Source: a virus. From it: DNA of 64,000 nt. Below the pieces are notes generated by a model. It had not been told where the DNA came from. It made no database searches and was given only the letters and a program-made list of their open reading frames with translations. Below, piece after piece: positions 1,343-40,124 of the stretch (position 1 is the stretch's first letter; every line of letters starts with the position of its first letter). Position numbers and translations under genes: made by a program. The DNA lies in IMG/VR virus record IMGVR_UViG_3300020220_004906, positions 1-64,000 of that record; one strand, written 5' to 3'.

Positions 1343-1894
1343 TTAATCTAAATTTATATTTTGAGGCAAGCCATCTAGGCTCATTTGAACACTGATTCTG
1401 TCGCTGGTAAGATTCTCCACACTATGCAGTATGCGAGTATCAAGAATGGCCCAACTTCCTTCTTCTAGTCGCCTTGAATCCAATACCTTTAGTTTGCTGT
1501 AATCGCCCACACGTGAATGTGGATCTCTCATTATAGGATGTCCCTCTTCCTGCCAGTAGGTCAGGGTGGCGCCACCATCACGAACCAGATACTGCAGCAC
1601 ATACTTGCGTGTCTGATCGGTATGCACCCCCGCGGTGCCGGGATTGGCAGACCCGAACGCGTAGCGTATGCCAACATCACGGTACACCGAAGTGATGTTG
1701 TGCTTCAACCATGACTCTAGCTCGGGAGATGCCGTGCAGATGGGATTTCGCGCGGAAACCACAATCGTGCCATCTTCTCGCACATGAGTCCATCCAGGAT
1801 AATCTCTCAGTATGTCCGCGGGCCCATGGGCTAATATGGCATCAATAAAATGTTGGGGGATGGGAGATAGATTCAGCACTTTGAAATACCACAT
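1343..1894 (-). CDS. 2-oxoglutarate/Fe(II) oxygenase-like protein
   Basis: The protein has 183 residues from the start chosen at 1894. That start lies 8 bases after a CATAAATA promoter; an upstream ATG at 1930 would place the promoter inside the coding region. A His-x-Asp pair (HTD, residues 91-93) and a distal His in TRILHSVEN (about 156) fit the metal-binding triad of the double-stranded beta-helix oxygenases, with Arg near the C-terminus as a possible 2-oxoglutarate ligand. The layout resembles aspartyl/asparaginyl hydroxylase-like and prolyl-hydroxylase-like proteins found in other marine T4-like phages. The substrate is unknown. A cupin-type protein without 2-oxoglutarate dependence is the alternative. 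Confidence 0.55.
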   Translation of the reverse strand: MWYFKVLNLSPIPQHFIDAILAHGPADILRDYPGWTHVREDGTIVVSARNPICTASPELESWLKHNITSVYRDVGIRYAFGSANPGTAGVHTDQTRKYVLQYLVRDGGATLTYWQEEGHPIMRDPHSRVGDYSKLKVLDSRRLEEGSWAILDTRILHSVENLTSDRISVQMSLDGLPQNINLD

Positions 1895-1902
1895 ATTAGA
1901 AA

Positions 1903-1910
1903 TATTTATG
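1903..1910 (-). promoter_or_regulatory. Late-type promoter CATAAATA
   Basis: CATAAATA on the minus strand ends 8 bases before the ATG at 1894. No Shine-Dalgarno is present between them, so the transcript would have almost no leader. Confidence 0.55.
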
Positions 1911-1996
1911 GGGTGATAATATGCAAGCAACTTTTATTGAATTTTTTTTATTATAAGCAGTCATATTAAAATTATATCATATATCTTAAATATTTT

Positions 1997-2384: not shown

Positions 2385-3173
2385 TTAAACCACTCTCAAT
2401 TCAATATTAAGCAGATCGGTAATCAGCATGCAGCCAGGCGAATGAGTAATACACAAACTGGGTTTGGCTTTTTGTATTACAACCTGAGGAGTAACGCCAC
2501 AGGCCCAAAACATTGGCACATGATCTAGAGGTAGTACATCAGGAGTTTCTCCCCAATTGGGTTGATATAAATTTTTAATTCCTATTTCCGCCGGATCACC
2601 TACATGCACAGGACCACCGTGTACCTTAGGAAATTTAGAAGTTATTCTCACTACCTCTTCCGCTCGATCTTTTGGAAAGGATCTCATGCTCACAACCATT
2701 GGTCCCCAAAAACGTCCAGCAGGCCGACACAGTTGATTTGTTATATACATAGGCACAATGGTACCTTGTTTGATATGAGGTAAATGAAATCCCGCTTCTA
2801 GTAAAGGCAATTCAAAACTTAGGCTACAGCCCAACACAAAAGCCACAAGATCAAGACTCCAATAAGAATCAATGTTTGTGGGTTCATCTACTAACTCACC
2901 GTGACGGAACACTCGATATTTGGGTACATCGGTACGTATATCTAATTCACCCAGAGTGCAATTCAAGAAAGGGTCACCCGGGGTGCTCATACCAATGAGT
3001 GGACAAGGTTTTGGATTACGCTGGCAGAAAGCAGCAAATTCTATAGCATATTCTGCAGGAAGTATAACCACATTACCTTGCACATGTTTACTGGCAGCAC
3101 CCGTGGTATACCCACAGTATTTGCCCGCTCTGATGATTTCTCTCGCCTCGCGAGAATCTTGAACATTCAACAT
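2385..3173 (-). CDS. DUF1445 family putative hydro-lyase (D-glutamate cyclase-like)
   Basis: The 262-residue protein matches the DUF1445 (YcsI-like) family along its whole length. Signatures include GYTTGAASKHVQGNVVILP at the N-terminus, FCQRNPKPCPLIG, the DIRTDVPKYRV strand, VHGGPVHVGDPAEIGI and the C-terminal VPMFWACGVTPQ. Characterised relatives include mitochondrial D-glutamate cyclase, which converts D-glutamate to 5-oxoproline; bacterial members are called putative hydro-lyases. The start at 3173 is preferred over 3296 because homology begins there and the longer form would overlap the divergent gene. It has no phage structural neighbour, so it looks like an acquired metabolic gene. It is full length with no visible lesion. 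Confidence 0.85.
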   Translation of the reverse strand: MLNVQDSREAREIIRAGKYCGYTTGAASKHVQGNVVILPAEYAIEFAAFCQRNPKPCPLIGMSTPGDPFLNCTLGELDIRTDVPKYRVFRHGELVDEPTNIDSYWSLDLVAFVLGCSLSFELPLLEAGFHLPHIKQGTIVPMYITNQLCRPAGRFWGPMVVSMRSFPKDRAEEVVRITSKFPKVHGGPVHVGDPAEIGIKNLYQPNWGETPDVLPLDHVPMFWACGVTPQVVIQKAKPSLCITHSPGCMLITDLLNIELRVV

Positions 3174-3194
3174 TATCCAATACTTATAGACACT

Positions 3195-3872
3195 ATGAAA
3201 AACTTTTTCCAATTTGACAGTGCCTGTGTAAATATTCATATGTTTGCAACATTCCAAGATGTGTGGAAAAAAGAAGAACTGTTGTGGTTTTACCAAGACA
3301 TGCAGAGGGCCAAATGTACTTTGGAGAAACAGAACAGCAGCGATCCCAACTATAAAAATCCTTCTTGTTTGCGATGGCTACATAAGAAAGGCACCGATGC
3401 CAGAAATCGATTAGAAGAAAAAATTTTAAAATTGTTGCCCGATCATGAAATGACCTTTGCAGCCTATGTAGAACAATATCAACCCAACATGTTACATTTT
3501 GACAGTGATGGCGGCCCATTTGGTGCCACTTGTATCATACCTCTTCTAGATTATAAAGGTGACACAGACCAAACACTGGTGTTTGATTATCTTTGCAAAG
3601 ACGGAGAAACCACAAAATCAACGTTGGAAAAGCTGTGCAAGGAAACAGAGCATGGTAGGCCTAAATTCAAGCACACACAGCAATATAAATTAGATCATTG
3701 CGGATACAATTCTATTATAAATGCCACAAAACTTTTGGGAGTGTTCTATTATAGACAAGGGGACATGGCAGTGTTTGACAAACGGTTATTACACTGCTCA
3801 AACAACTGGAATCTCACGGACCCTGTGAGGGAACACAAGGACTTTATCTTAATACACACACAAGCAAAATAG
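3195..3872 (+). CDS. 2OG-Fe(II) oxygenase-like protein
   Basis: This 225-residue protein starts at 3195, 21 bases from the divergent DUF1445 start. The upstream-extended frame from 3078 would overlap that gene. A His-x-Asp (HFD, residues 101-103) within NMLHFDSDGGP, and a distal His in RLLHCSNNW (about 198) followed by Arg, form the expected metal site of the jelly-roll oxygenases. The N-terminal 90 residues are helical and lack known motifs. The substrate is unknown. It is one of at least four oxygenase-like genes in the accessory region. Confidence 0.55.
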   Translation: MKNFFQFDSACVNIHMFATFQDVWKKEELLWFYQDMQRAKCTLEKQNSSDPNYKNPSCLRWLHKKGTDARNRLEEKILKLLPDHEMTFAAYVEQYQPNMLHFDSDGGPFGATCIIPLLDYKGDTDQTLVFDYLCKDGETTKSTLEKLCKETEHGRPKFKHTQQYKLDHCGYNSIINATKLLGVFYYRQGDMAVFDKRLLHCSNNWNLTDPVREHKDFILIHTQAK

Positions 3873-4244: not shown

Positions 4245-4252
4245 CATAAATA
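4245..4252 (+). promoter_or_regulatory. Late-type promoter CATAAATA
   Basis: CATAAATA lies 37 bases before the TRAP-like gene at 4290. That gene also has a Shine-Dalgarno (GTAGGAGA), so this is a conventional leader. The same octamer precedes the second TRAP-like gene at 9538. Confidence 0.65.
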
Positions 4253-4289: not shown

Positions 4290-5339
4290 ATGTCAAAACA
4301 AAAAATAAGATGGCTCATCACACATGAACCGCAAGATCTATTCATTAGAGCGGCACGTTGTTTCGAGCAAAAATTAGACGCGAAGTTACCTGGAAAATTT
4401 GAATTAGAACTTTACACTTCTGTGGACGATATGGTGGCGAAAAATGCTGACATGTTTTCAGCTGAAGAAAAAGAAGTTTTAAAAGACAGATCACCGGTAC
4501 TTAAAGGCCTAGAAAGCGACAATGAATCAGTTGAAGGAAAAGATTCAAACTTTAAATACAGAATAGCTAAATGGGCGAAAGTATTTGAAATCTTAAATGA
4601 TGGAAGAATACATATGTCACAAGCACAGGTTAACATCATTGGTGGTTACTTAGACAAAACCATTTCTGTGTTAGACATGCCTTTTTTATTCAAAGACCAC
4701 AACCATGTTACTAGAACGGTAGAAGGTGCTGTTGGAAAAATTATATCCAGCAAGGTTCACAATAAAACAGGTATCAAGCCACTTTGCTACACCTACTCTG
4801 GTGGATACAGAGTGATTGGTGCGACCCAAGATATTAAATCTTTGGAAGATCTAAGAAATCAACCACACTTCATCACCACAACAGGTGTGTCAAGTCATTT
4901 GTTCAGATATGCAGGTGCTGAAAAAGCCACAGGCACTTGGAGCTTGACAGACAGAGATGTTCAAGATATGAATGTCAACGGTGGAGCGATTGAAACAACT
5001 TTGATTAGATTTACTGGCAAGTATGTTTTCAAAACAAACCACAGCATGTTCATGACATCAATTCTTTGCGGTAAAACGTTTTGGAATTCTTTATCTGCAC
5101 AAGAAAAAGAACTATTCGTTCAAGCCGGCCTAGAAACTTCTAGACAAGAAAGAATCTGGTCATTAGAAGATGCAGCTAAAATCGAAGCAGAAGCAAAAGA
5201 AAAAGGATTGGTAATCAATACTATTTCTGATGTAGAAACTGCAGAGCTTAAGAAAGCGGCAGAAAAATGTTATCTGTCCGGTTTCTTAGATCGTCAAGGC
5301 ATTGATCATAAAATTGTTGGTCTTGCATTGAGATCATAA
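4290..5339 (+). CDS. TRAP-type (DctP-like) substrate-binding protein without signal peptide
   Basis: This 349-residue protein has the two-lobe DctP/TRAP solute-receptor layout. The central family signature ISVLDMPFLFKDHNHVTRTVEGAVGK (quoted here only by its first part, about residues 125-144) and the strand YTYSGGYRVIG are both present. Transporter receptors carry a signal peptide and work in the periplasm, but this one begins MSKQKIRWLITHEPQ, so it should stay in the cytoplasm. No DctQ or DctM membrane subunit lies nearby. At the lobe junction, where TRAP receptors place the carboxylate-binding Arg (KVRT in the paralogue at 10161), this copy reads FITTTG, so ligand chemistry has probably changed. 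It is followed by a helical protein and a PP-loop protein, and a second set in reverse order. Confidence 0.75.
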   Translation: MSKQKIRWLITHEPQDLFIRAARCFEQKLDAKLPGKFELELYTSVDDMVAKNADMFSAEEKEVLKDRSPVLKGLESDNESVEGKDSNFKYRIAKWAKVFEILNDGRIHMSQAQVNIIGGYLDKTISVLDMPFLFKDHNHVTRTVEGAVGKIISSKVHNKTGIKPLCYTYSGGYRVIGATQDIKSLEDLRNQPHFITTTGVSSHLFRYAGAEKATGTWSLTDRDVQDMNVNGGAIETTLIRFTGKYVFKTNHSMFMTSILCGKTFWNSLSAQEKELFVQAGLETSRQERIWSLEDAAKIEAEAKEKGLVINTISDVETAELKKAAEKCYLSGFLDRQGIDHKIVGLALRS

Positions 5340-5350
5340 AAAATCACACC

Positions 5351-5382
5351 TATAGGCACGGTAGTTAAATACCGTGTCTATG
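5351..5382 (+). promoter_or_regulatory. Hairpin enclosing a TTAAATA element at the next start codon
   Basis: About 12 bp of stem (GCACGGTA paired with TACCGTGT, extended by flanking TATAG/CTATG pairs) encloses GTTAAATA at 5364-5371. The ATG at 5380 lies 8 bases after the octamer. It could terminate the TRAP-like transcript, present a late promoter, or mask the start codon. Confidence 0.4.
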
Positions 5383-6279
5383 GACTCACATCACCCTCTA
5401 TATTTCCAATGTCGGCATGATCCGTCTCATGAGAGATACGGGTTATTACATCAAAAAAGCAATAGTTTTTATATTATTGATAGTGATCCGGCGTTGTTAA
5501 AAAAAGTTCAATTAACAGCCATGAGATATGAGGTACTACATCTAGTAAACATAGATCATTTTTTTACTTTTTTAGAAAAAATATGGAAGATTTTGGACAA
5601 ATATCAAATTAAAAGCATGACCGAAGCACATCATATACACGAGCTCAGGGCGGCAGTATATCTAAACGACAAATCAAGGACAGAAGATATTCAAAAATTT
5701 CTAAATAATGATAACTGTCATTTTTTTGGAATGACTGTAAGCACAACTAGATCTATTCCGTTGGACATAAATCATTATCGTTTGCAAGATAATATAATAA
5801 AACATCAAAAAAAAGATAAACTTTTTAATGATGAGTTGCAGGAAAAATTATTTTTGATTCGTCGAATCTTATATGTTCTTAAAGGAGTGTTTGAATATTC
5901 TACGGAATTTGTAAATTTGCAAGAAAGCATTTGTAACTTTGGATTAAAAGAATATCAAAAACATTTTGCTATCTGCAATGCAACAGACACTGCTATTCCA
6001 AAAATAGTAGAAGGGGAGATAGAAAGCAATGAAATAAGAGTCAAGTCGATACAACAATTATATAACACAATTTATAAACGTTTTAACGAAATAAATTTTA
6101 ATCAATCTAATAAGGAAATACTTTTACAGTTCATCTCAACTATATGGGCAAAAGAATGTATTACGGAAGCAGAGGAACAATACCCAGATTTTCAGATGAC
6201 ATACGATATTAACAAAATTAGAGGCATTTTAAGAAATGAAATAAACAATCTGATCGCATATTATGCTTCTGAATTTTAA
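5380..6279 (+). CDS. Conserved helical partner protein (copy 1)
   Basis: I do not recognise the family. The protein has 299 residues from the ATG at 5380; a GTG two codons upstream is less likely. It is a paralogue of the gene at 8745: both open with a short strand-rich domain (xxYF...H...xxRYGLLxxKxNxFYxLxSxxxLLKxxQL) followed by a long helical region with many Lys and Glu. Both sit beside a PP-loop protein and a TRAP-like protein. It has no signal peptide, membrane segment or metal motif. AT content is clearly higher than in the structural genes. The linkage suggests it works with the PP-loop or the TRAP-like proteins. Confidence 0.7.
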   Translation: MDSHHPLYFQCRHDPSHERYGLLHQKSNSFYIIDSDPALLKKVQLTAMRYEVLHLVNIDHFFTFLEKIWKILDKYQIKSMTEAHHIHELRAAVYLNDKSRTEDIQKFLNNDNCHFFGMTVSTTRSIPLDINHYRLQDNIIKHQKKDKLFNDELQEKLFLIRRILYVLKGVFEYSTEFVNLQESICNFGLKEYQKHFAICNATDTAIPKIVEGEIESNEIRVKSIQQLYNTIYKRFNEINFNQSNKEILLQFISTIWAKECITEAEEQYPDFQMTYDINKIRGILRNEINNLIAYYASEF

Positions 6280-6291
6280 CAGGATATACAA

Positions 6292-7554
6292 ATGAGTAAT
6301 TCAACGTCCGAAGGAGCACATCTTATAGAAAAAATAAGAGCACACAATAATTTCGACGCATCTGTGTATCTTAAAAAATTAAAAAATAATCAATGCATGT
6401 ATCTAACACAACTTGGGTCTGGACTATTCCACGAATGGGATATGTTATCAAAAGATGCGCAATATTATCTAATGATACCATATATATTAATTGGCACTCG
6501 AGATTTTAGACCACGCATAGGTAAATTTGAAGACCCGTGGAAATCCAAGGTACATCCATTGTATGCTGCACCACCTTTAAAATTTATAAAAGATTCACTA
6601 GCGGATATTGCAGACAATCGTGCAATCCAACTTATAAACAATGCCAAAAGTACTGGAAGAAATATTGCAGTGATGTGGAGTGGCGGCATCGACAGCACAG
6701 TTATGTTAACTTCCATCCTAAAGAACATAAGCGATTCAGATCAGGAACTACTCACGGTATTTTTAACCACCCACAGTATATCCGACAATCCAGATTTTTA
6801 TTTTAAATTTTTATCTTCTAATAAAAAAATTCAAATAAAAAATGCAGCAACATTAAGAGTGGACAACAGTTTTTTAGATAAAACTCTTTTATTAACAGGA
6901 GATCCCGGGGATGGTGTGTTTGGTCCATCTTCGTCCATGTACAGTTGGTTTTCCGAAAGTAAAAAACACTTAGAACCATGGCGCGATCACTTGAAGACAA
7001 TCATGCAACTTCTTGAACCCAACATAGAAAGAGATATGCTTGTACAACCGGGTATAGGTGAATGGTTTACTAATATCGTGACTCAAAATTTAGAGGAAAG
7101 CGGCTATGCTGATCATGTCAGCTCAGTGACCGATTGGTACTGGTGGACATATTTTAATTATAAATGGTCTTCCTTATGCTCTTATCCCCTACATAATAGT
7201 ATTATGGGAGAGCAACATAAAGGAATCACACACGATAATCATAAATTTTACGCTGAAAATATTTTTTATCATACTACACAATGGCAACTTTGGTCCTATT
7301 CAAATTTAAAAGAACTAGTTGGGCCGGATGTTTTTAAAACTCATAAGTTGAAGGCTAGAGAATATATCTATGAGTTTGATAAAAATTTTCAATATTTTTC
7401 TAGAAAAAGAAAAACATCAACCCCACCTCCCAACATGAAATTGCAAAAGTCATCGTTGATCGGGCATGACGAAAATTGGAAACCAATCTATTTAGACCAT
7501 TATCCAGATAGATATCTTATAACTCTTATTCTATCAAGATATAAAACGTCATGA
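6292..7554 (+). CDS. Asparagine-synthetase-like PP-loop ATP pyrophosphatase (copy 1)
   Basis: The protein has 420 residues. A novel N-terminal part of about 120 residues replaces the glutamine amidotransferase domain of AsnB; there is no N-terminal Cys nucleophile. It is followed by the ATP-pyrophosphatase domain with the PP-loop SGGIDST at 130-136 and a GDPGDGVFG motif near 203, equivalent to the GDGADELFGG loop of asparagine synthetases. Such domains adenylate a carboxylate and join it to an amine. Without a glutaminase it must use free ammonia or another amine, as beta-lactam synthetases and lasso-peptide cyclases do. It begins 13 bases after the helical partner and ends 9 bases before its own paralogue. 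Confidence 0.8.
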   Translation: MSNSTSEGAHLIEKIRAHNNFDASVYLKKLKNNQCMYLTQLGSGLFHEWDMLSKDAQYYLMIPYILIGTRDFRPRIGKFEDPWKSKVHPLYAAPPLKFIKDSLADIADNRAIQLINNAKSTGRNIAVMWSGGIDSTVMLTSILKNISDSDQELLTVFLTTHSISDNPDFYFKFLSSNKKIQIKNAATLRVDNSFLDKTLLLTGDPGDGVFGPSSSMYSWFSESKKHLEPWRDHLKTIMQLLEPNIERDMLVQPGIGEWFTNIVTQNLEESGYADHVSSVTDWYWWTYFNYKWSSLCSYPLHNSIMGEQHKGITHDNHKFYAENIFYHTTQWQLWSYSNLKELVGPDVFKTHKLKAREYIYEFDKNFQYFSRKRKTSTPPPNMKLQKSSLIGHDENWKPIYLDHYPDRYLITLILSRYKTS

Positions 7555-7562
7555 AGTAAACC

Positions 7563-8741
7563 ATGAATCAACACCTAATAAATCTAAAAGATTCTCCTTG
7601 TATACCTTGCAATCGTTTAGCTATACTGAGGCCGTCTGAAAGATTCCCACACGCCAAATATTGGATAAGGACTCAACATCTATTAATGGGCGTAATAGAT
7701 TTAAGGGCTCGAGTGGGCACGTTTACAACGCCATGGGATATCGCCAGCAATTCTTTATATAAAATTCCAGAATTTAAAATTACTAACGATTCTCTAGAAG
7801 ATCTATTAGATGAAAGAGCATTAGAAATTTATTATTCTGCCAAAAGGACTAATAAAAAAATTGCTGTCATGTGGAGCGGGGGGATCGACAGCACCTCGGT
7901 GTTGACTGCGTTCCTAAAAAATGTTCCGATCGCTGACAAAAATATTATTACGGTGTTGTGCGATACTAATTCTATTTTAGAAAATATTGAATTTTATAAA
8001 AAATTTATTTCAAATAAATTAACATGCATACATTACAGGACCATTAACTTGACCGAGGAATTCTTACAAAGTTATATATTGCTACACGGAGATCCTGGGG
8101 ATTGTTTATTTGGTCCTAGCATTTCCAAATATCAATACTTCATAGATCGCGGGCTACATTTAGAGCCATGGAAAAACCATCTAGGTAAAATGAAAGAATT
8201 ATTAGAGATACCCCAAGTTGATCCCATGTCGTATGAACCAGGGTTTGGGGATTGGTATGTAAATAAAATTACGAATAATTTAGAGGAAACAAAGCAGTCA
8301 GCATATCTCACTTCAATTGCCGAGTGGTGGTTTTGGACCTATTACAACTTCAAATGGGAATTCAGTTGTCAGCGTCCATTTGCATATTTAAGGAGGGATT
8401 TCACAACTAAATTTAGCGACAATAGTATAAAAGAATTTGCTCAAAATACTTTTTTTAATACTGAAAAATTTCAACAGTGGGCATATTCAAACATTAAGAA
8501 AAATATACCCAAAGATTTTTCATTACACAAACAACAAGTCAAGATGTACATATACGAGTTTACAAAAAATTTAGATTATTTAAAATACAAATCTAAATTG
8601 CCAGCGAGGCCAGCAAATCTTGATTTGATGACATCGTCTCCCTTCCGACCGATCTATTATACAAAAAATTGGCAAGGCGTGTTAGATGATTCGCTTTCTA
8701 TTAAAACCCTGAAAATATTGTTAGAGAGGTACCAAGGATAA
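7563..8741 (+). CDS. Asparagine-synthetase-like PP-loop ATP pyrophosphatase (copy 2)
   Basis: This 392-residue paralogue of the preceding gene shares its architecture: an N-terminal domain of about 95 residues containing the conserved IDLRARVGTF-TPW stretch, the PP-loop SGGIDST at 105-111, and the loop GDPGDCLFGPS near 180. It also keeps the aromatic segment WWFWTYYNFKWE, which matches WYWWTYFNYKWS in copy 1, so the pair share an unusual aromatic-rich surface. There is no amidotransferase domain. The two enzymes may act on different substrates or as a heterodimer. It is AT-rich like its neighbours. Confidence 0.8.
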   Translation: MNQHLINLKDSPCIPCNRLAILRPSERFPHAKYWIRTQHLLMGVIDLRARVGTFTTPWDIASNSLYKIPEFKITNDSLEDLLDERALEIYYSAKRTNKKIAVMWSGGIDSTSVLTAFLKNVPIADKNIITVLCDTNSILENIEFYKKFISNKLTCIHYRTINLTEEFLQSYILLHGDPGDCLFGPSISKYQYFIDRGLHLEPWKNHLGKMKELLEIPQVDPMSYEPGFGDWYVNKITNNLEETKQSAYLTSIAEWWFWTYYNFKWEFSCQRPFAYLRRDFTTKFSDNSIKEFAQNTFFNTEKFQQWAYSNIKKNIPKDFSLHKQQVKMYIYEFTKNLDYLKYKSKLPARPANLDLMTSSPFRPIYYTKNWQGVLDDSLSIKTLKILLERYQG

Positions 8742-8744
8742 TTT

Positions 8745-9506
8745 ATGACAGGAATTGTTAAATCGCCTTATTATTTTTCTGTACGCTCACATATTGAGAC
8801 AGACCTTAATTTTTATGGACTGCTAGATATAAAACAAAATTGTTTTTATATGTTACACAGCAACCATTCATTGTTAAAATTTTTTCAACTTATGTTGTTA
8901 AAAAATTTCTATACTTTTTCTATCGTTAGTTTCAAACACCTCAATTGTGATATGCACAAAAATATTGACAACAGCGATTGTATAAATTGGGGCGGGACCG
9001 CCGACATGATCAACAGCCTAGAATTCGAAGTCAATACTTCGATGAATGAAGTAAAATTAATAAAAGTTACACCAGGTTATGATTTAATATTACAAGAAAA
9101 AATGTTTTTTATAATGTATATCTTGTCAAAATTAGATAATGTTTTTCAAAAAATACGGAAACACGAAATAGATATAAAAGAAACCATGCACGAGGGATAT
9201 GACGAATTAAGAAAATATCTTGAAATGCTCTGCCCAGATGATAAGAACATAAGTGAGTTTATCAACGAGGAAGACAAACAATTGCGTTCTAAATCCCAAG
9301 AATTAGATGTATATTGGCAAAAAATACTTTTATTTTTTTATAATCTTGATTTCCGCAATAATTCAACGATCTCCATGTTTGATTCTTTTAAAAAATATAT
9401 AGAAACAGCCGAATTTGGGCTCGAACGTTTTAGAAGGTTATATCGACACCCAGATGCAGCGCTAGAAGAATTTCACCAAATTTTAAATATAACTAGAAGA
9501 TCTTAA
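8745..9506 (+). CDS. Conserved helical partner protein (copy 2)
   Basis: The 253-residue paralogue of the gene at 5380 begins 4 bases after the second PP-loop gene. The N-terminal domain (YYFSVRSH, FYGLLDIKQNCFYMLHSNHSLLK) aligns with copy 1. The remainder is predicted mostly helical and charged. No family is recognised. The gene order is reversed relative to the first set: the PP-loop gene comes first here, the helical partner first there. Confidence 0.7.
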   Translation: MTGIVKSPYYFSVRSHIETDLNFYGLLDIKQNCFYMLHSNHSLLKFFQLMLLKNFYTFSIVSFKHLNCDMHKNIDNSDCINWGGTADMINSLEFEVNTSMNEVKLIKVTPGYDLILQEKMFFIMYILSKLDNVFQKIRKHEIDIKETMHEGYDELRKYLEMLCPDDKNISEFINEEDKQLRSKSQELDVYWQKILLFFYNLDFRNNSTISMFDSFKKYIETAEFGLERFRRLYRHPDAALEEFHQILNITRRS

Positions 9507-9537
9507 GCCAAAATATCTAATATCCTTGGTAAAGTAG

Positions 9538-9545
9538 CATAAATA
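9538..9545 (+). promoter_or_regulatory. Late-type promoter CATAAATA
   Basis: The octamer CATAAATA is identical to that before the first TRAP-like gene. It starts a leader of roughly 50 bases with an AAAGGGA ribosome-binding site before the ATG at 9603. Confidence 0.65.
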
Positions 9546-9602
9546 CTTTTAACAAATTACCTTAATTTGTTATTTTAACGTTAAAAACAAAGGGAATAAA
9601 AA

Positions 9603-10079
9603 ATGACTAAAACTACTAAGATTAGATGGGTTATAGCACACGAGCCTTTATCTTTATTTGTGAGAGCAGCTAAAGATTTTCAAGACTATGTGAATCAAGC
9701 TCAGACTGCAGAAAAAATAGAAGTTGAAGTTATGACTCTAAGTGAGTACAGCGAGAGATACAACAACGGTGTTGTTGTAACTAAACACGATTTACTTGAC
9801 CTTATGGAACAAGGCAAAATTGAAATGTCGCAAATGTACACAACTTGGTTAGCTGAAAAATTTGATCAAGACATGTTAGCATTAGATATGCCTTTCATAT
9901 TCACAGATCATGATCATGCAACTAGAGTATTAGAAGGTGAAGTGGGACAGTTTTTATTAAACAAGATCACTGAAAAATCTAATGTAAGAGGCATGGCGTT
10001 CACCTACTCAGGTGGATTTAGAAACGTAATTTCTAGTAAAAAAGTTGATAAGTTATCAGACTTAACTACTAAACACTAA
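9603..10079 (+). CDS. N-terminal lobe of a split TRAP-type substrate-binding protein
   Basis: The 158 residues correspond to the first lobe only of a DctP-like receptor. It opens like the 4290 gene (KIRWVIAHEP), has the family core MLALDMPFIFTDHDHATRVL and the YSGGFRNVISS strand, and stops at SDLTTKH. In intact receptors the next residues would be the inter-lobe crossing LKGxKVRT, and exactly that segment begins the gene at 10161. There is no signal peptide. An intrinsic terminator follows directly. The ends are clean and there is no internal frameshift, so this looks like a deliberate fission rather than decay. It may assemble with either of the two downstream C-lobes. Confidence 0.75.
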   Translation: MTKTTKIRWVIAHEPLSLFVRAAKDFQDYVNQAQTAEKIEVEVMTLSEYSERYNNGVVVTKHDLLDLMEQGKIEMSQMYTTWLAEKFDQDMLALDMPFIFTDHDHATRVLEGEVGQFLLNKITEKSNVRGMAFTYSGGFRNVISSKKVDKLSDLTTKH

Positions 10080-10100
10080 TTACTATCTTACCAAAATTAA

Positions 10101-10128
10101 AAGGGCGGCAGCGATGTCGCCCTTTTTT
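10101..10128 (+). terminator. Intrinsic terminator inside the split TRAP gene
   Basis: GGGCGGC and GTCGCCC form a 7-bp stem (one G-U pair) with a 6-base loop, flanked by A residues and followed by six T. It is one of the two clearest intrinsic terminators in the window, and it separates the N-lobe and C-lobe genes. Confidence 0.85.
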
Positions 10129-10146
10129 ATTCTACCTTATATACAA

Positions 10147-10154
10147 ACTAAATA
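10147..10154 (+). promoter_or_regulatory. Late-type promoter ACTAAATA
   Basis: ACTAAATA ends 6 bases before the ATG at 10161, directly after the terminator. The C-lobe genes would have their own transcript with almost no leader. Confidence 0.55.
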
Positions 10155-10160
10155 TTTTTA

Positions 10161-10646
10161 ATGAAGGTACGAACAAATAGAAATCCAGTTGCCAAAGCAA
10201 CTTTCAAAGCACTAGGCGCCGAAGGACATGTTTCTGAAATTGAAGAAGTAAAAGGACTGATGGAAGATGGTACAGTAGAGGGCGGCGAGACTGTATATTC
10301 AAGAATTTATCCATTAGAACAAAATCAAGTCACAGAATCGGTAATTGACACACAACATAGTTTGTTCCTCACAAGTATGATCATGAGAAACGATTTCTAT
10401 GAAAAATTATCTCCAGAAGTTCAAGCAATAATAAAGGAAGCCGCTATTAAAGCCGGACGTAAAGAAAGAGAAACTACAATCATGGACGGAGAAGAAGCCA
10501 AAGAAAGATTAAAAGCCGAAGGAGTTGCGATTCATGAATTAACACCAGAAGAAAAAGAAGAATTTATTGAAAAAACCAAAGCGGTGTATGAAGAATTTAA
10601 AGACAAATTCACACCTGGATTGATTGAAAAAATTAAAAAGGCCTAA
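10161..10646 (+). CDS. C-terminal lobe of a TRAP-type substrate-binding protein (version a)
   Basis: The 161 residues match the second lobe of DctP-like receptors. The protein begins at MKVRTNRNPV, which contains the Arg that binds the ligand carboxylate in TRAP receptors, followed by FKALGA, the SIxxxEQNQV region and the long C-terminal helices (EEAKERLKAEGV). It cannot fold as a complete receptor alone. A close tandem copy follows after 3 bases. The two are nearly identical except in residues about 21-46, which line the ligand side of the lobe. Confidence 0.75.
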   Translation: MKVRTNRNPVAKATFKALGAEGHVSEIEEVKGLMEDGTVEGGETVYSRIYPLEQNQVTESVIDTQHSLFLTSMIMRNDFYEKLSPEVQAIIKEAAIKAGRKERETTIMDGEEAKERLKAEGVAIHELTPEEKEEFIEKTKAVYEEFKDKFTPGLIEKIKKA

Positions 10647-10649
10647 TAC

Positions 10650-11141
10650 ATGAAAGTTCGTACCAATAAAAATCCAGTTGCCAAAGCAACATTTAAAGCA
10701 CTAGGAGCCGACATAAATTCGCAAGTTATAGAAATAGAAGACCTTAAAGCAAAAATAGAGGCCAACGAGGTACAAGCAGGAGAAGGCATATATTCGAGAA
10801 TATATCCACTAGAGCAAAATCAAGTGCTTCGATCGGTATTGGATACACAGCACAGTCTATTCCTCACAAGCATGATCATGAGAAACGACTTCTACGAAAA
10901 ACTATCACCCGAGGTCAAGTCGGTGCTAAAAGAAGCCGCTATTAAAGCCGGACGTAAAGAAAGAGAAACTACCATACAAGATGGAGAAGAAGCCAAAGAA
11001 AGATTAAAAGCCGAAGGCGTGTCCATACATGAATTGACCCCAGAAGAAAAAGAAGAATTTATTGAAAAAACTAGAGTAGTATACGACACGTTCAAAGATT
11101 TTTTTACCCCCGGACTGATCGAAAAAATCAAAAAGTCTTAA
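10650..11141 (+). CDS. C-terminal lobe of a TRAP-type substrate-binding protein (version b)
   Basis: The 163-residue tandem paralogue of the gene at 10161 has the same MKVRTN start, the same LDTQHSLFLTSMIM core and the same helical end. Residues 21-48 (ADINSQVIEIEDLKAKIEAN, quoted in part) differ strongly from version a and carry a two-residue insertion. It is co-transcribed with version a. The stop overlaps the stop of the convergent aminotransferase gene by 4 bases. It may give the N-lobe a second ligand specificity, or may form a C-lobe dimer. Confidence 0.75.
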   Translation: MKVRTNKNPVAKATFKALGADINSQVIEIEDLKAKIEANEVQAGEGIYSRIYPLEQNQVLRSVLDTQHSLFLTSMIMRNDFYEKLSPEVKSVLKEAAIKAGRKERETTIQDGEEAKERLKAEGVSIHELTPEEKEEFIEKTRVVYDTFKDFFTPGLIEKIKKS

Positions 11142-12457
11142 GCTGTTTCTTTTAAAACTTTTTTAAAACTATCCACTATCTTATCTATCTCTTTCTTTTC
11201 GATGATAAGAGGTGGGGCCAACGTTAACACATCACCCCCTGTTAATCTTACGTAACAATTTTGCTCATGAAACATTTTTCTGAACACGTCGTTGGCTCTA
11301 ACAAATGGTTTATCTGGCAAAGGGTCTAGTTCTATAGCCCCTAACATACCAATATTCCTGATATCTATAATATGTTTACTGCCTCGCAGTGAATGTAGAG
11401 CGTCTTCAAAATATTTTATTAATTCTTGATCTTTGTTAAACAAATTTTCCTTCTCATACAAGTTGATAGCAGCAAGAGCTGCAGCACAAGCAAGTGGGTG
11501 AGCGGAATAGGTATATCCGTGATAAAGCTCTATTGAATTTTTTTTTGCACTCATAAAAAGATTATAGATCTTATCATGTATAATTGTTGCTCCCATCGGA
11601 ACAGTTCCGCTAGTTAAGCCTTTAGCTATAGTCATCAAGTCGGGTTCGATATTAAAAAAATCTGCGGCAAAGGGTTTTCCTAATCTTCCAAAACCGGTGA
11701 TAACTTCATCAAATATTAAAAGTATTTCATTATCAGTGCAAATTTTTCTTAATTTTTCTAAATAACCCACCGGTGGAATTAAAACTCCGGCAGTCCCGGC
11801 GACCGGCTCAACAATAACTGCCGCGATATTACTTGCGCCATGTTTTTCAATTTGTTTTAACAAATCATCTGCTAGATGAGTGCCCCACTTAGGCTGCCCT
11901 TTAGAATACGCATTGTGCTCAAGATTATGTGTATGTGGAAGATGATAGACATCGGGTAAAAATCTTTCTGCCTGCATATTGATAAAAAGATTTCCCACAG
12001 TAGATCCTCCAAAATTGGTACCGTGGAATCCACGATTTCGTCCTATTATGATTTTTTTGTTTGTCTTGCCTTGCAGCTTGAAGTAAGATAAAGCAATTTT
12101 TAAAGCAGTTTCTACAGCTTCCGAACCGGAATTTGTAAAAAATATTTTATTTAAATTTTTTGGAGTAATAGAACTTAATTTCTCAGCCAGCCTAAATGCG
12201 CCAGGATGGCTCATTTGATATGAAGGTACAAAGTCCAATTTTGCTGCTTGATCTTGTATTGCTCTCACGATCTCGTCTCTGTTGTGCCCAGCATTGCAAC
12301 ACCATAGTCCTCCGTGGGCATCTAAAATTTTATCGTTGTAGATAGTAAAATAGTACATGTCTTTAGCTCTATCGATAATTCTAGGTCTGGGTAAGTTTTT
12401 AAAAATATTGTTAGGTGTAAATGGTAACCAAAGATGATCTAAATTTAAATTTTCCAT
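11138..12457 (-). CDS. Class III (omega) aminotransferase
   Basis: This 439-residue PLP-dependent enzyme is full length for the class III family (430-460). The glycine-rich cofactor loop TNSGSEAVETALKIA, the Asp that pairs with the pyridine ring in LLIFDEVITGFGRLG, and the Schiff-base Lys in MTIAKGLTSG are all present, as is the N-terminal HLWLPFTPN found in taurine- and beta-alanine-pyruvate aminotransferases. It would move an amino group from an omega-amine, such as beta-alanine, taurine or putrescine, to a keto acid. A GTAAATA element precedes it. It is AT-rich and looks recently acquired from a bacterium. With the TRAP-like genes it suggests handling of small organic amines. Confidence 0.9.
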   Translation of the reverse strand: MENLNLDHLWLPFTPNNIFKNLPRPRIIDRAKDMYYFTIYNDKILDAHGGLWCCNAGHNRDEIVRAIQDQAAKLDFVPSYQMSHPGAFRLAEKLSSITPKNLNKIFFTNSGSEAVETALKIALSYFKLQGKTNKKIIIGRNRGFHGTNFGGSTVGNLFINMQAERFLPDVYHLPHTHNLEHNAYSKGQPKWGTHLADDLLKQIEKHGASNIAAVIVEPVAGTAGVLIPPVGYLEKLRKICTDNEILLIFDEVITGFGRLGKPFAADFFNIEPDLMTIAKGLTSGTVPMGATIIHDKIYNLFMSAKKNSIELYHGYTYSAHPLACAAALAAINLYEKENLFNKDQELIKYFEDALHSLRGSKHIIDIRNIGMLGAIELDPLPDKPFVRANDVFRKMFHEQNCYVRLTGGDVLTLAPPLIIEKKEIDKIVDSFKKVLKETA

Positions 12458-16181: not shown

Positions 16182-16208
16182 ATGTTTAAATTTTATCTGA
16201 ATCAATGA
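16182..16208 (+). CDS. Eight-codon leader peptide frame
   Basis: ATG at 16182 opens MFKFYLNQ and stops with TGA at 16206-16208, which overlaps the FTR1 ATG (ATGA). The predicted transcription start is at the leader ATG itself. This could couple FTR1 translation to the leader. No iron-regulator box is evident. Confidence 0.35.
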   Translation: MFKFYLNQ

Positions 16209-16804
16209 CACCATTCCTCAGTTCAACTTTTGTAATATTCCGAGAGGGCTTTGAAGTGTGGTTGATCATGGTGCTGGCCATGGCCAGCGTTGGTGGTAAT
16301 TTACCACAGCAACGCACCATCTGGATCAGCGCTATGGCTGCTTTTGCAGCCACAATACTGTTGGGCAGTGCAACTGCTGCTTGGCTGGGAGATCATGCAA
16401 ATTTAGAGCGCTTTGAAGCTTTAATCGCCATTATAACGGGTGTTATATTGGCCTGGGTGGCCTGGTTTTGCCATGGCGCTGCACAGCACGTGCAGAACCT
16501 GCCACGGCACAGCACATTGGCGCTGGGTATCGCTGTTTTCTTCATTATTTTTAGAGAGGGTGTGGAAGTAGTGCTGTTTCTAACCGGCATCTACGCAGAT
16601 CACCCTAATATTGCTTTGATGTCTTTGGGCATTTTGGTGGGTTTGGTGGTTTTGGTAATAGCAATTAAGGTTGCTAACCATCAAATCAAGAAATTGCCAG
16701 TGAAACAGATATTCTTGTACAGTCGATGGCTGTTTACTGGACTTGCGGTGTATTTCCTTTATTCGGGCATACATGAGCTCGTGGAGCATGGCATCAGGTT
16801 CTAA
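16205..16804 (+). CDS. FTR1-family iron permease
   Basis: This 199-residue integral membrane protein carries both FTR1 signature motifs: FREGFE (residues 12-17) in the first helix and FREGVE (116-121) in the fourth. The Glu residues line the iron path. About six hydrophobic helices are visible, one fewer than typical FTR1/EfeU proteins of about 270 residues, which also carry a C-terminal extension. The family imports ferric iron across the cytoplasmic membrane, usually with an oxidase (EfeO/EfeB) that is absent here. The sigma-70 promoter means it can be made early. The likely role is to raise iron supply during infection. Confidence 0.85.
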   Translation: MTPFLSSTFVIFREGFEVWLIMVLAMASVGGNLPQQRTIWISAMAAFAATILLGSATAAWLGDHANLERFEALIAIITGVILAWVAWFCHGAAQHVQNLPRHSTLALGIAVFFIIFREGVEVVLFLTGIYADHPNIALMSLGILVGLVVLVIAIKVANHQIKKLPVKQIFLYSRWLFTGLAVYFLYSGIHELVEHGIRF

Positions 16805-21198: not shown

Positions 21199-22890
21199 TC
21201 AGCTCTTGGTAAAATTCTCTAGCACGAATGTTTTGGCGTCATAGCATTCTACATAGTCGGAATTGTTGGCGTGCCTCACAGTGCCTTGTCCCCAGATCAC
21301 GTCCTGATCATGCAAGGACACAGCACGCTTGATTGTGACATCGATATATTGTCCGTTACCCACACCCAGCGTGACGAACGTGATGTACTGTCCCCGATCT
21401 CCACGAAATATCCTACCATTGGCTACCAGTCCTGCGAATTCAACTCGATCCATGTACAATTCTTTCACGTACAATCCGTCAAGAAATTTCTTGCCTGACC
21501 ACCAGCCGTATTTCCTATATTGGAACTGCGGAGTGTCCCATCGATCTGAGCAGGAGGGAGTAACTACCTCCAGTCCCGCACGCTTGCTTTCTAATTTGTA
21601 CACCCAGCGACGATAGGAGCCCTGGCAGTGCTTCATGCAGGCCTCCCAGAATTTCTTGTTGTTGTGTGCCTTTTGATAGGCCAGTGCCCAGATTAGCCTG
21701 CCTAAATTCACCGCGTGTGCTCGGCACAGTCCAAAACCCGAAAGGCTCTGCAGCATGGTTATTATTTCTGATTTCCTTGGATGGTTGCCCAGTCTCGTGG
21801 TGAATTCTAAAATTTTTTCTTCGTTTTTCTTGGCGAAGGCGCGTCTGTACATGTCGGCTTCGTATTTGTCTATGTCCAGCACTTCTGCTATTCTGTCTAT
21901 GGCGTCATCTTCATACACTATGGTGTCCTCCATGCGCTCTTGGCTCCAGTCATGGAACATGGTGGCCTTCTTTCTGCCGGACACGGCCACTGGCCTTATG
22001 AGGGCAGTGGCGAACACGCAGTCCTTCCTGCTGGTGGGTTTTATCGCTCTGAAAAGTCTCCTCATCGCGGGCGACTCCGCCTGGGTGACCCCCAGCACGT
22101 CACCTCTGCACAGCAGTTCTGCCGTGGCATCATCGCGCTCGGGATATTCTGTCAGTTTTGTGTGTGGGTCGATCTCCAGTAATTGGCTCAGCCCTCTGTT
22201 GGCCAGTATGTCTACCTTGAGGTGTTCCAGGTCCTCCACTTCGTTCTTGTCCAGCAGTATCTGATTTTCAGCTGTGAACAGGCTTTTTGGCAAGGCTCTG
22301 CCGAACATCAATATTCCGCCGCAGTGTTTGGATATGCATCTCTTCTTCCCCAGCAATTTCTTCTCTATCCTAGCGGCCTCCCTGATGTCGATGTTGAGAG
22401 ACTCATATTTGAAATTGCGAGGCAGATTGCCCTTTGCACCCAATCTCTTTGCAGCTTCTCTTCTCGCACTTTTGTCCCTGTACAGCACATAATTGGATAT
22501 CCTGGCGGATCTTCCGGGCCAGCGATCGAATATTCTCTGCATGACCTCCTCCTGTTTGTGGTGTGGGAAGTCTATGTCCACGTCCGGGAGGTCGTCCCTA
22601 TTGGGATTGAGGAAACGTGCTATGGGTATGTTCCATTCTATGGGATCCACATCAGTGATGCCCAACAGATAGCACACCAAGGATGATCCCGCGGAGCCCC
22701 TGGTCATGTGTGGTATGTCTCTAGTCAGAGACATGATGTCACATATCTGTATGAAGTAATCTACGAAGCGTAATTGCAGTATGATCTTGGTTTCCTCGGC
22801 CAGACGCTGCGTGTGTTGTTCCGAGTCCGGACACTGCCTGATGAATCTTTCGTACAGCCTGGTTATGTCGTTTAGTTCCTGATCTTTCAT
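21199..22890 (-). CDS. DnaE-type DNA polymerase III alpha-like protein lacking the PHP domain
   Basis: The protein has 563 residues. MTRGSAGSSLVCYLLGITDVDP leads to PDVDIDF at 102-108, which holds the first catalytic aspartates. LKVDILANRG supplies the third, and ALIRPVAVSG and a GFGLCRAHAVNLG stretch correspond to the later palm/fingers motifs of DnaE. A C-terminal beta-rich part (VEFAGLVANGRIF) fits the OB fold. Cellular DnaE is about 1150 residues with an N-terminal PHP domain, which is missing here. It closes the replication operon after endonuclease III. No family B polymerase (gp43) appears in the window, so this may be the replicative enzyme, or gp43 may lie outside. Confidence 0.85.
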   Translation of the reverse strand: MKDQELNDITRLYERFIRQCPDSEQHTQRLAEETKIILQLRFVDYFIQICDIMSLTRDIPHMTRGSAGSSLVCYLLGITDVDPIEWNIPIARFLNPNRDDLPDVDIDFPHHKQEEVMQRIFDRWPGRSARISNYVLYRDKSARREAAKRLGAKGNLPRNFKYESLNIDIREAARIEKKLLGKKRCISKHCGGILMFGRALPKSLFTAENQILLDKNEVEDLEHLKVDILANRGLSQLLEIDPHTKLTEYPERDDATAELLCRGDVLGVTQAESPAMRRLFRAIKPTSRKDCVFATALIRPVAVSGRKKATMFHDWSQERMEDTIVYEDDAIDRIAEVLDIDKYEADMYRRAFAKKNEEKILEFTTRLGNHPRKSEIITMLQSLSGFGLCRAHAVNLGRLIWALAYQKAHNNKKFWEACMKHCQGSYRRWVYKLESKRAGLEVVTPSCSDRWDTPQFQYRKYGWWSGKKFLDGLYVKELYMDRVEFAGLVANGRIFRGDRGQYITFVTLGVGNGQYIDVTIKRAVSLHDQDVIWGQGTVRHANNSDYVECYDAKTFVLENFTKS

Positions 22891-29411: not shown

Positions 29412-29975
29412 CTATTTATTTTTCCTTATCAAATTCATCTGAACTACAATGGCCTGAGCATAGGCAACAGCATGAGACTTTTTAAAATAGTAGCTTTCGT
29501 CTGAAGGTTTCACCCACACTTCTTTTAATATTTCCGTCCAGTATTTGTGCATGAGATGCCGCTTGGCAGGTCTGATTATTGCCAACACCGCCGCCAGCTG
29601 TTCAATATTTTTTGGTTCCAATTTATATACTATATCGAAATGGCCATTGATATGGAACAATTGATCCACAATTGTTTTATCTTTTAACATGTCCCAGTCT
29701 GGTTCTTCCAGCATCAACTCAACTAATTCCTGTTCTGTTTTCACGCCTTCATAGAGATTAACGTTTAGCAGATCTATTTTAAAATAACCACGATCTTCTG
29801 CTCTTTTAAAATCAAAACTGCACGAGCCCAACATTGGGTCCACAGGCACTTCATGAAAGTACACGCCTGTCTTGTGTTTTTCTATCTCCTCGTCTTTGAT
29901 TATGGATGCTGGCACATGTTTAAACAATTTGAGTGCGTGTTCTCTATTGGCAAAATCTATGTCTACGTCTGGCAT
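29412..29975 (-). CDS. Minimal DnaE-like polymerase palm protein
   Basis: Only 187 residues. It opens MPDVDIDFANREHA, the DnaE catalytic-loop motif, and has the third acidic motif in FKIDLLNVN near 70. It also keeps a RPAKRHLMHKYW stretch like the RPG motif and FKKSHAVAYA like the FNKSHAAAYA motif of bacterial PolC/DnaE. All parts usually spread across about 500 residues are compressed. Its ATG overlaps the upstream stop (TGATG). It may pair with the 563-residue DnaE at 21199, or be a repair polymerase or a non-catalytic relic. Confidence 0.75.
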   Translation of the reverse strand: MPDVDIDFANREHALKLFKHVPASIIKDEEIEKHKTGVYFHEVPVDPMLGSCSFDFKRAEDRGYFKIDLLNVNLYEGVKTEQELVELMLEEPDWDMLKDKTIVDQLFHINGHFDIVYKLEPKNIEQLAAVLAIIRPAKRHLMHKYWTEILKEVWVKPSDESYYFKKSHAVAYAQAIVVQMNLIRKNK

Positions 29976-38408: not shown

Positions 38409-40124
38409 TCACAACATCTCATACTTTTTGATCCAATCTTGCATGACCCAGGCTGGAACCAGAGCTTTGCTTGCCTTTTGGCTTACCGTTATCCTATCCA
38501 GTCTTGATTTCTCTCCGACACAGCTAGTATAAAACTTTTTTAAATTGTTATCAATGCCCATGGCCAGCCACTGTCCGATTGGCACAGTCCAACCTGTCTT
38601 TTGTTTCGTAATTATTGCATCTGGCAGTAATCCTTTGTAGGCAATTTTGGTCAATAACTTTGTCTCGTGTTTATTTTTTCCTATCTTGTGACTGGTTGGT
38701 ATGTCCAGGCAATATTGCATGAACATTTTTGTGGTCAAAGGAAATCTCCCCTCCATGCCAAACGCCATGCCGTATTTGTCGTTCCTAGAGAAGAATTCAT
38801 TTGGTGCTTGTGCCACACAATCAAGGGCCATATAAGATGCTACGGGATCCACAGGATTCCATAAGGTGTCAGGATACAACTTTATTAACTCTTCTCTCAA
38901 CACCGCGGCCGGCAGAGTCGGCACTCCCACCACTAGTGGTCTTTTTATTCTTTGTAACCATTTGTCTATTATGTCTCCCCATGAACGGAACTTTTCATCT
39001 TTCATTTTCCAATACTTGGGATATCCTCCCAGTATCTCATCGCCCATGTCTCCCGCCATGGTTATGACGGTGCCGGCCTCCGACAATTTGCGATTGGTAT
39101 GATAATACATGCTCATGCTGGGGTTGTAGACAGGTTGTTCCATGTAGTAGATGCTGTCTTTCCATGCCGCGATGACATCGTTGGGTGTGATAATAACTTC
39201 GGTGTGATTGAATTTTTCTTGCACAGCTAAAATTTTTGCACAGGCGGCATCACTGTTGTAATCTTCATCGGTCACGACATTGGGCTGCATTTTATTAGTG
39301 AATGTGTTCACAGCTCCATGTATCTTCATCATCTCATATGCTACCACGCTGCTATCCAACCCACCGCTGAGGAATACCCCCATCTGTCTTCGTCCTATGC
39401 TTGACATCTGCACAGTCTTTCTCACACGATCTCTGAACTCCGCGGGATCAAAGGATCGATTAGATCTTGGAGTGATGTAAATTCTTTCTGATGATTTTAT
39501 TCTTTTTCTTGCACAGTCATATGTGATTGTTTCTCCCGGCATCAGTTGTTTTATGTTGGAGAAGAATGTGTTCCTGGTGGCATTGATGCCGGTGAGGCTC
39601 ATGCAGCTGATCGCCAACTGATCTATCTTCCTGGAGTTGGGCACCTGATCCAGCATGCCTTTTATTTCTGAACCAAATATTAATCCCTCCGCGGTTTCAG
39701 CATAGTATAGAGGTTTGATGCCAGCATGATCTCTACTCAATATCAGTTGCTTTGACTGGGTGTTGTAATAGGCAAAGGCATGCATGCTGTCAATCTCTTC
39801 AACAAATTTTTCACCATGGTGATCCAATCCCCATGCTAACAATTCTGTATCACATGTGGTACGGGGTTTAAAAGCTGTGTATTTTTTTATCAAATCAAAA
39901 TAATTAAAAATCTCTCCATTATATATTAATATGTTGCCTCTCTCAGTGTGCCATGGCTGATGCGACACTTGTGGCTGATCGGTTATGCTTAAAAGATTAT
40001 GTCCTAGAGTGACAGAATCATCATTCCAAATATCCTGTCCATCTGGTCCTCGATGTTCGCAGATTTTTATATACTTTTCTATAAAGTCTCTATCTCGTTT
40101 GGTTATGCCATATATGCCACACAT
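38409..40124 (-). CDS. asnB: Glutamine-hydrolysing asparagine synthetase-like protein
   Basis: This 571-residue protein has the full AsnB architecture. Cys2 is the glutaminase nucleophile in MCGIYGI, followed by HRGPDG and YNGEIFNY. The synthetase domain has the PP-loop SGGLDSS near 245, and AGDMGDEILGGYPKY is the second ATP loop. Besides free asparagine, such enzymes amidate sugar acids in O-antigen and capsule loci. Here it lies inside the glycan block and adjoins a capsule-type gene by one base, so amidation of a glycan is at least as likely as asparagine supply. Confidence 0.9.
   Translation of the reverse strand: MCGIYGITKRDRDFIEKYIKICEHRGPDGQDIWNDDSVTLGHNLLSITDQPQVSHQPWHTERGNILIYNGEIFNYFDLIKKYTAFKPRTTCDTELLAWGLDHHGEKFVEEIDSMHAFAYYNTQSKQLILSRDHAGIKPLYYAETAEGLIFGSEIKGMLDQVPNSRKIDQLAISCMSLTGINATRNTFFSNIKQLMPGETITYDCARKRIKSSERIYITPRSNRSFDPAEFRDRVRKTVQMSSIGRRQMGVFLSGGLDSSVVAYEMMKIHGAVNTFTNKMQPNVVTDEDYNSDAACAKILAVQEKFNHTEVIITPNDVIAAWKDSIYYMEQPVYNPSMSMYYHTNRKLSEAGTVITMAGDMGDEILGGYPKYWKMKDEKFRSWGDIIDKWLQRIKRPLVVGVPTLPAAVLREELIKLYPDTLWNPVDPVASYMALDCVAQAPNEFFSRNDKYGMAFGMEGRFPLTTKMFMQYCLDIPTSHKIGKNKHETKLLTKIAYKGLLPDAIITKQKTGWTVPIGQWLAMGIDNNLKKFYTSCVGEKSRLDRITVSQKASKALVPAWVMQDWIKKYEML

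Follow-up and report, generated by a model that had tools for sequence, protein, structure and literature searches.

The stretch of DNA analysed here, referred to below as the window, comprises positions 1–64,000 of the 75,462-base IMG/VR virus record IMGVR_UViG_3300020220_004906. Between 4290 and 11141 on its plus strand lie eight genes that had been proposed, from the sequence alone, to form a cluster of TRAP-like receptors, PP-loop enzymes and helical partners. All eight open reading frames (ORFs) are present at these positions, and they encode one whole TRAP receptor protein (DctP/SiaP type, PF03480), one split TRAP protein consisting of an N-half and two C-halves, two PP-loop proteins and two partner proteins:

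4290–5339, plus strand: TRAP1, whole DctP-type protein, no signal peptide, without the conserved ligand arginine (PF03480, E 1.5e-25)
5374–6279, plus strand: hel1, partner protein of unknown fold
6292–7554, plus strand: PP1, AsnB-type PP-loop protein (MWSGGIDST, GDPGDGVFGP), no glutaminase
7563–8741, plus strand: PP2, AsnB-type PP-loop protein, no glutaminase (model pLDDT 94)
8745–9506, plus strand: hel2, partner protein with a small stranded N-terminal domain and a long helical hairpin (model pLDDT 86)
9603–10079, plus strand: TRAPn, N-terminal half of a DctP-type protein, no signal peptide (DctP E 1.8e-16, profile 9–134)
10161–10646, plus strand: TRAPca, C-terminal half a of a DctP-type protein, ligand arginine at residue 4 (DctP E 2.6e-29, profile from 138)
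10650–11141, plus strand: TRAPcb, C-terminal half b, pocket segment unlike that of a (DctP E 3.1e-23, profile from 138)

The matches of both C-halves run from profile position 138 to 283–284, and the two proteins share 79% identity. The two sides of the cluster are paralogous, as had been claimed, with TRAP1 and the N-half matching at 30% (8e-28), hel1 and hel2 at 25% (5e-8) and PP1 and PP2 at 38.5% (2e-89). Their mirror order, put forward together with the paralogy, did not hold up as a conserved feature, being found among the relatives only in locus L003 while the others hold the same parts in other orders. It is the parts that are conserved, not the mirror.

The split TRAP protein and its missing export signal

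The DctP protein is encoded by two genes in 25 viral loci, a count that takes in some near-copies. The position of the cut was constant, always before M-K-x-R-T/A-N, where single-chain relatives read e.g. G-T-P-V-R-S-N, and it falls at the hinge of the DctP-type protein. Five junction layouts were found: a spacer of 81–82 nt with a terminator (window and L003), TAA-TAA-ATG in frame (the L005 group), an overlap of 17–23 nt in the +1 frame, a 4-nt ATGA overlap and a spacer of 18–19 nt. The halves cannot be joined by frameshifting in the terminator and double-stop layouts, so that frameshift or read-through as a general mechanism is ruled out by the TAATAAATG and terminator junctions; in the overlapping class only, it is possible in principle. 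In the tree, the seven split representatives formed one clade (99/95) nested in the single-chain signal-less family, making a single origin most likely, with the junction remodelled later. Selection on the split halves is strongly purifying (dN/dS between the window and L003 of 0.027 for the N-half and of 0.055 and 0.072 for the C-halves).

The presence of two C-halves, found likewise in L020, can be examined at the level of identity along the alignment. Orthologous C-halves of the window and L003 were 95–96% identical over the first 62 alignment columns and 87% over the remainder, whereas a and b inside one genome shared only 65–69% in the first part and 86–93% in the remainder. These first 62 columns contain the ligand arginine and the pocket segment that follows it. 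The pattern indicates that the 3′ part of the C-half genes has been homogenised within each genome while the pocket part stays separate, and its simplest reading suggests that two ligand specificities are kept around one common N-half. The arginine was retained in 9 of 9 aligned split C-halves and in 29 of 37 full-length proteins; according to PMC4646407, the corresponding residue of SiaP fixes carboxylate specificity.

The viral full-length proteins begin at the mature N-terminus, e.g. MKTIRWVIAHEP. Judged by hydrophobicity rather than by a trained signal-peptide predictor, 67 of the 68 had no hydrophobic stretch ahead of the domain, the sole exception (L030) being probably an artefact of the ORF start. 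Binding proteins with the TRAP-receptor fold are textbook periplasmic proteins, and a leader was present in all 30 distant bacterial homologues and in most of the near ones (Bdellovibrionota), indicating that export has been lost in the viral family. The membrane subunit DctM, the only one searched for, was absent from all 50 TRAP-bearing viral records (DctP was found in 50/50, and four exceed 300 kb) and from the 75 kb record of the window, any of which may be incomplete. The original prediction of receptors lacking both signal peptide and membrane partner is thus borne out as far as DctM is concerned, and neither a cryptic export signal nor a DctM elsewhere in the record came to light. The signal-less form also occurs in a few bacterial contigs from metagenome-assembled genomes (MAGs). 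A scan of genome contigs with the N-half only gave no match, and with the full TRAP family it returned Bdellovibrionota and a few chromosomal copies.

PP-loop enzymes, partner proteins and gene neighbourhoods

Structures were predicted for PP2 and hel2 as single chains. The PP2 model (predicted local distance difference test, pLDDT, of 94) had asparagine synthetases, TsnB9 and carbapenam synthetase as its nearest solved structures (probability 0.69–0.99, E about 1e-3), and among its nearest viral models were proteins from uncultured phages that bear the name “asparagine synthase” (TM 0.78). By this model the PP-loop synthetase domain of PP1 and PP2 is predicted to be of AsnB type, on a weak sequence match. 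No class II glutaminase domain was found in either protein by ORF inspection and profile search, and motifs and model together agree with the proposal of an AsnB-like synthetase domain devoid of glutaminase. The window also holds, at 38409–40124, a full-length glutamine-type AsnB gene (MCGIYG start) amid glycosyltransferase-like genes in the ORF listing, so that this phage possesses both AsnB with glutaminase and AsnB-like proteins without it. Among the partners, the hel2 model (pLDDT 86) had no match in the PDB, and no known fold was found for the hel proteins. Their N-terminal domain recurs in proteins encoded ahead of PP genes in other lineages (hhalign probability 96, E 3e-9), indicating that the partner–PP pair is general. 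A second PP-loop family, c1, is homologous to PP (hhalign probability 95), and the order c1, TctC, TRAP recurs in many loci.

The co-occurrence suggested as a check was clear in viral metagenomes, with TRAP and PP genes linked and not scattered. A PP or c1 gene lay in reach at 64 of 81 viral TRAP-family loci (near-copies included), and a TctC gene at 43 of them. Of the 25 records that contain both TRAP and PP and are at least 60 kb long, 23 have a PP gene no more than 5 kb from TRAP, compared with a mean of 4.9 and a maximum of 13 in 20,000 trials of random placement, a test that treats the loci as independent although they are related by descent. Phages with hel–PP arrays beside a DNA polymerase-like gene lacked a nearby TRAP gene, yet carried DctP elsewhere in 8 of 8 searched records of at least 49 kb, versus 1 of 10 smaller fragments. 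In L091–L109, two or three hel–PP pairs stand in tandem near a T4-like DNA polymerase-like gene, giving several distinct PP-loop proteins per phage. Among cultured phages we found no relative of PP1 or c1, and DctP only as bacterial-type sequences of about 25% identity.

Carboxylate permeases are recurrent neighbours. The viral contig L068 (8998–17939) contains TctC, signal-less TRAP, PP, TctB, TctA, TctC and TRAP in one run, with three further genes, one of them oxygenase-like, and judging from its genes carries a complete tripartite tricarboxylate transporter in a phage. In three bacterial MAG contigs (L121, L124 and L133) the signal-less TRAP gene is preceded by genes for a small oxygenase-like protein (HxD...H motif) and an MFS transporter, and the transporters of L122, L124 and L133 score above the oxalate/formate antiporter cut-off. 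The three genes stand in a row in Bacteriovoracaceae and Gammaproteobacteria:

L133:6156–8942, L124:358–3272, L121:1–2117: MFS transporter, oxygenase-like protein, signal-less TRAP

Both kinds of permease, TctABC and the oxalate/formate antiporter, point to carboxylates as the ligand class. Other TRAP and PP genes are flanked by tail-fibre genes (L074–L087) or by head-closure and tail-tube genes (L041, L071), or lie in a tail module (L008). The PADLOC models gave no link to defence systems beyond a chance-level match (E 0.02).

Expression signals and genomic setting

Four putative expression signals accompany the cluster:

4245–4252, plus strand: CATAAATA with late-promoter-like core TAAATA, 43 nt ahead of TRAP1
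9538–9545, plus strand: CATAAATA with late-promoter-like core, ahead of TRAPn
10099–10126, plus strand: intrinsic terminator separating the N-half gene from the C-half genes (12 pairs, fold −18.9 kcal/mol), also in L003
10149–10154, plus strand: TAAATA core 12 nt ahead of the TRAPca start

The octamer CATAAATA does precede both TRAP-like genes, as had been noticed. It was not enriched (3 found against 5.0 expected) and was rejected as a special promoter; only its core was enriched. TAAATA, the core of T4-type late promoters, was found upstream of genes on the coding strand 23 times against 3.0 expected, the next best A/T hexamer reaching 3.7-fold. The N-half and C-half genes of the window thus have their own promoter-like cores with a terminator between them, and the cluster is likely expressed late. 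TAAATA often stands just 8–13 nt ahead of the start codon, at 10149–10154 and at the genes at 1997, 5374, 14921, 17483, 44499, 52945, 54551, 56574 and 57106. At this distance a T4-type late transcript would begin at or near the start codon, i.e., these would be leaderless late messages.

The minus strand of the window carries a T4-like set identified from the ORFs (terminase and sheath-like, tube-like, RecA-like and single-stranded DNA-binding-like proteins). The nearest relatives of the terminase are those of the jumbo phages PA5oct, Phosso and Atu_ph07, which makes it probable that the record covers only part of a large genome. Two genes close to the cluster are:

1343–1930, minus strand: small oxygenase-like protein with an HTD...H motif (motif and alignment only, no Pfam match)
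11138–12457, minus strand: omega-aminotransferase (AptA type)

The family of the former is the one that also adjoins signal-less TRAP genes in bacterial contigs. A gene of the D-glutamate cyclase/putative hydro-lyase family (2385–3296, NF003969 above cut-off) occupies the same place in L003, L005 and L110. The slot that separates the TRAP C-half from ClpP is filled by the omega-aminotransferase in the window, by a beta-keto acid cleavage enzyme (BKACE; L005:13824–14675) in the L005 group and by neither in L003, indicating exchangeable metabolic cargo. An Ftr1/EfeU-like iron permease gene (16205–16804), present also in L003 and L005, adjoins a run of five tRNA genes. Two proteins (21199–22890 and 29412–29975) resemble by eye parts of the alpha subunit of the bacterial replicative polymerase (PDVDIDF motif), in a T4-like phage.

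Proposed function and alternatives

We favour, with a probability of about 0.4, a late phage module in which a cytosolic, carboxylate-binding TRAP protein serves an amide-forming PP-loop enzyme. Expressed late, it would handle a small carboxylate in the host cytoplasm. The N- and C-chains would pair to form the pocket; the TRAP protein would bind an imported or host carboxylate and buffer it for, or deliver it to, the PP-loop enzyme, which in turn would adenylate it and join it to ammonia or an amine. The window could have two ligand specificities, depending on which of the two C-halves joins the single N-half. That the ligand is a small carboxylate, as first proposed, is favoured indirectly by the retained arginine, by its role in SiaP (PMC4646407) and by the permease neighbours. 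The more specific version, a two-chain cytosolic solute-binding protein with exchangeable C-halves feeding an ammonia- or amine-dependent AsnB-type synthetase in a viral capture-and-conjugate pathway, is somewhat less probable. To our knowledge such a pathway would be unlike any known transporter, sensor or amidotransferase system.

Several observations weigh against the module. TRAP1-type proteins are without the ligand arginine (they may bind a different ligand), the matches of the PP-loop proteins to solved structures are weak (E about 1e-3), no PP gene was in reach at 17 of the 81 TRAP loci (many of these are short), PP–hel arrays also occur far from TRAP genes, and genes of this type, where they lie in late tail-fibre or lysis regions, may just as well encode virion or lysis factors.

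This last point leads to the strongest of the alternatives, still an unlikely one, in which the TRAP-type proteins belong to the virion or assist its assembly (tail or baseplate) and the PP-loop enzymes modify virion proteins, which would be why the genes sit in the late structural module. The tail-fibre, head-closure, tail-tube and tail-module surroundings described above and the TAAATA cores ahead of the window genes would fit. However, tail-fibre regions of T4-like phages commonly contain unrelated cargo genes, the ligand arginine is retained, and the family is also found in bacterial contigs next to the oxalate/formate antiporter, and next to TctABC.

Two further readings, each rather improbable, keep the protein in the cytosol. 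As a sponge for a host signal or toxic metabolite, which the PP-loop enzyme would inactivate, it would serve counter-defence. Its cytosolic location, the strong selection on it and its two pocket variants are in accordance with this; but PADLOC gave nothing above chance, and the genes nearby encode carboxylate permeases and metabolic enzymes rather than nucleotide-signal functions. If it instead sensed or buffered a carboxylate, for example 2-oxoglutarate, it would tune the many phage oxygenases, with no transfer to the PP-loop enzyme. The small HTD...H oxygenase-like gene adjoining signal-less TRAP in bacterial contigs, with its member at 1343–1930 of the window, is in its favour, but the oxygenase assignment is by motif only and the linkage of TRAP and PP is left unexplained. 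Less probable again is ordinary transport cargo that reaches the periplasm by another route and serves uptake through host permeases: the TctC proteins encoded nearby do have signal peptides, and TctA and TctB are present in some phages, yet the signal peptide is cleanly lost across the whole clade, DctM is missing from the 50 records and secretion of two chains without signals is unlikely. Finally, stop codons do interrupt a gene that is single elsewhere, but decaying fragments or assembly errors are ruled out by 25 loci with one hinge position, five layouts, dN/dS of 0.03–0.07 and a single clade.

The components of the favoured module have known counterparts. The viral proteins are TRAP receptors by scores far above the family cut-off, the conserved arginine and whole-length matches to solved receptors, and differ from them in the missing signal peptide, the absence of DctM in 50 records and, in one clade, the two chains. 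With AsnB, TsnB9 and carbapenam synthetase the PP proteins share the SGGxDS motif and the predicted synthetase-domain fold; the AsnB-type GDxxDExFGG motif is replaced by GDPxDxxFGP, and they differ in having no glutaminase, weak sequence similarity, another C-terminal part and a separate partner protein. The uncultured Caudovirales “asparagine synthase” (BFVD A0A6J5LYZ2) shares the predicted fold of PP2 (TM 0.78), but is named by similarity only, and the searchable sources gave no function or TRAP link for it. Phage-borne parts of carboxylate transporters have been reported as tctA in SUP05 phages (PMC4164917), and TctC, TctB and TctA are neighbours in some of our loci; in contrast, no TctA or TctC lies near the window cluster, where the TRAP receptor is cytosolic and has PP-loop genes beside it. 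A literature search, with subscription journals mostly outside it, found no description of phage TRAP receptors with AsnB-like genes. A cytosolic split TRAP protein tied to AsnB-type enzymes was absent from the papers searched and from cultured phages; the component families and phage tctA are known.

In this viral family the receptor has lost export, has had its hinge cut in one lineage, has kept the arginine and has duplicated the pocket-bearing half. It lets one test what the receptor domain does without a transporter, and the split protein offers a naturally occurring example of lobe exchange, as well as of a binding protein of this kind assembled from two chains. The recurrence of AsnB-type proteins and carboxylate permeases beside the family suggests that a specific organic acid is managed by many large uncultured phages in the late phase of infection, and points to an undescribed route by which a virus captures and processes a small organic acid inside the infected cell.

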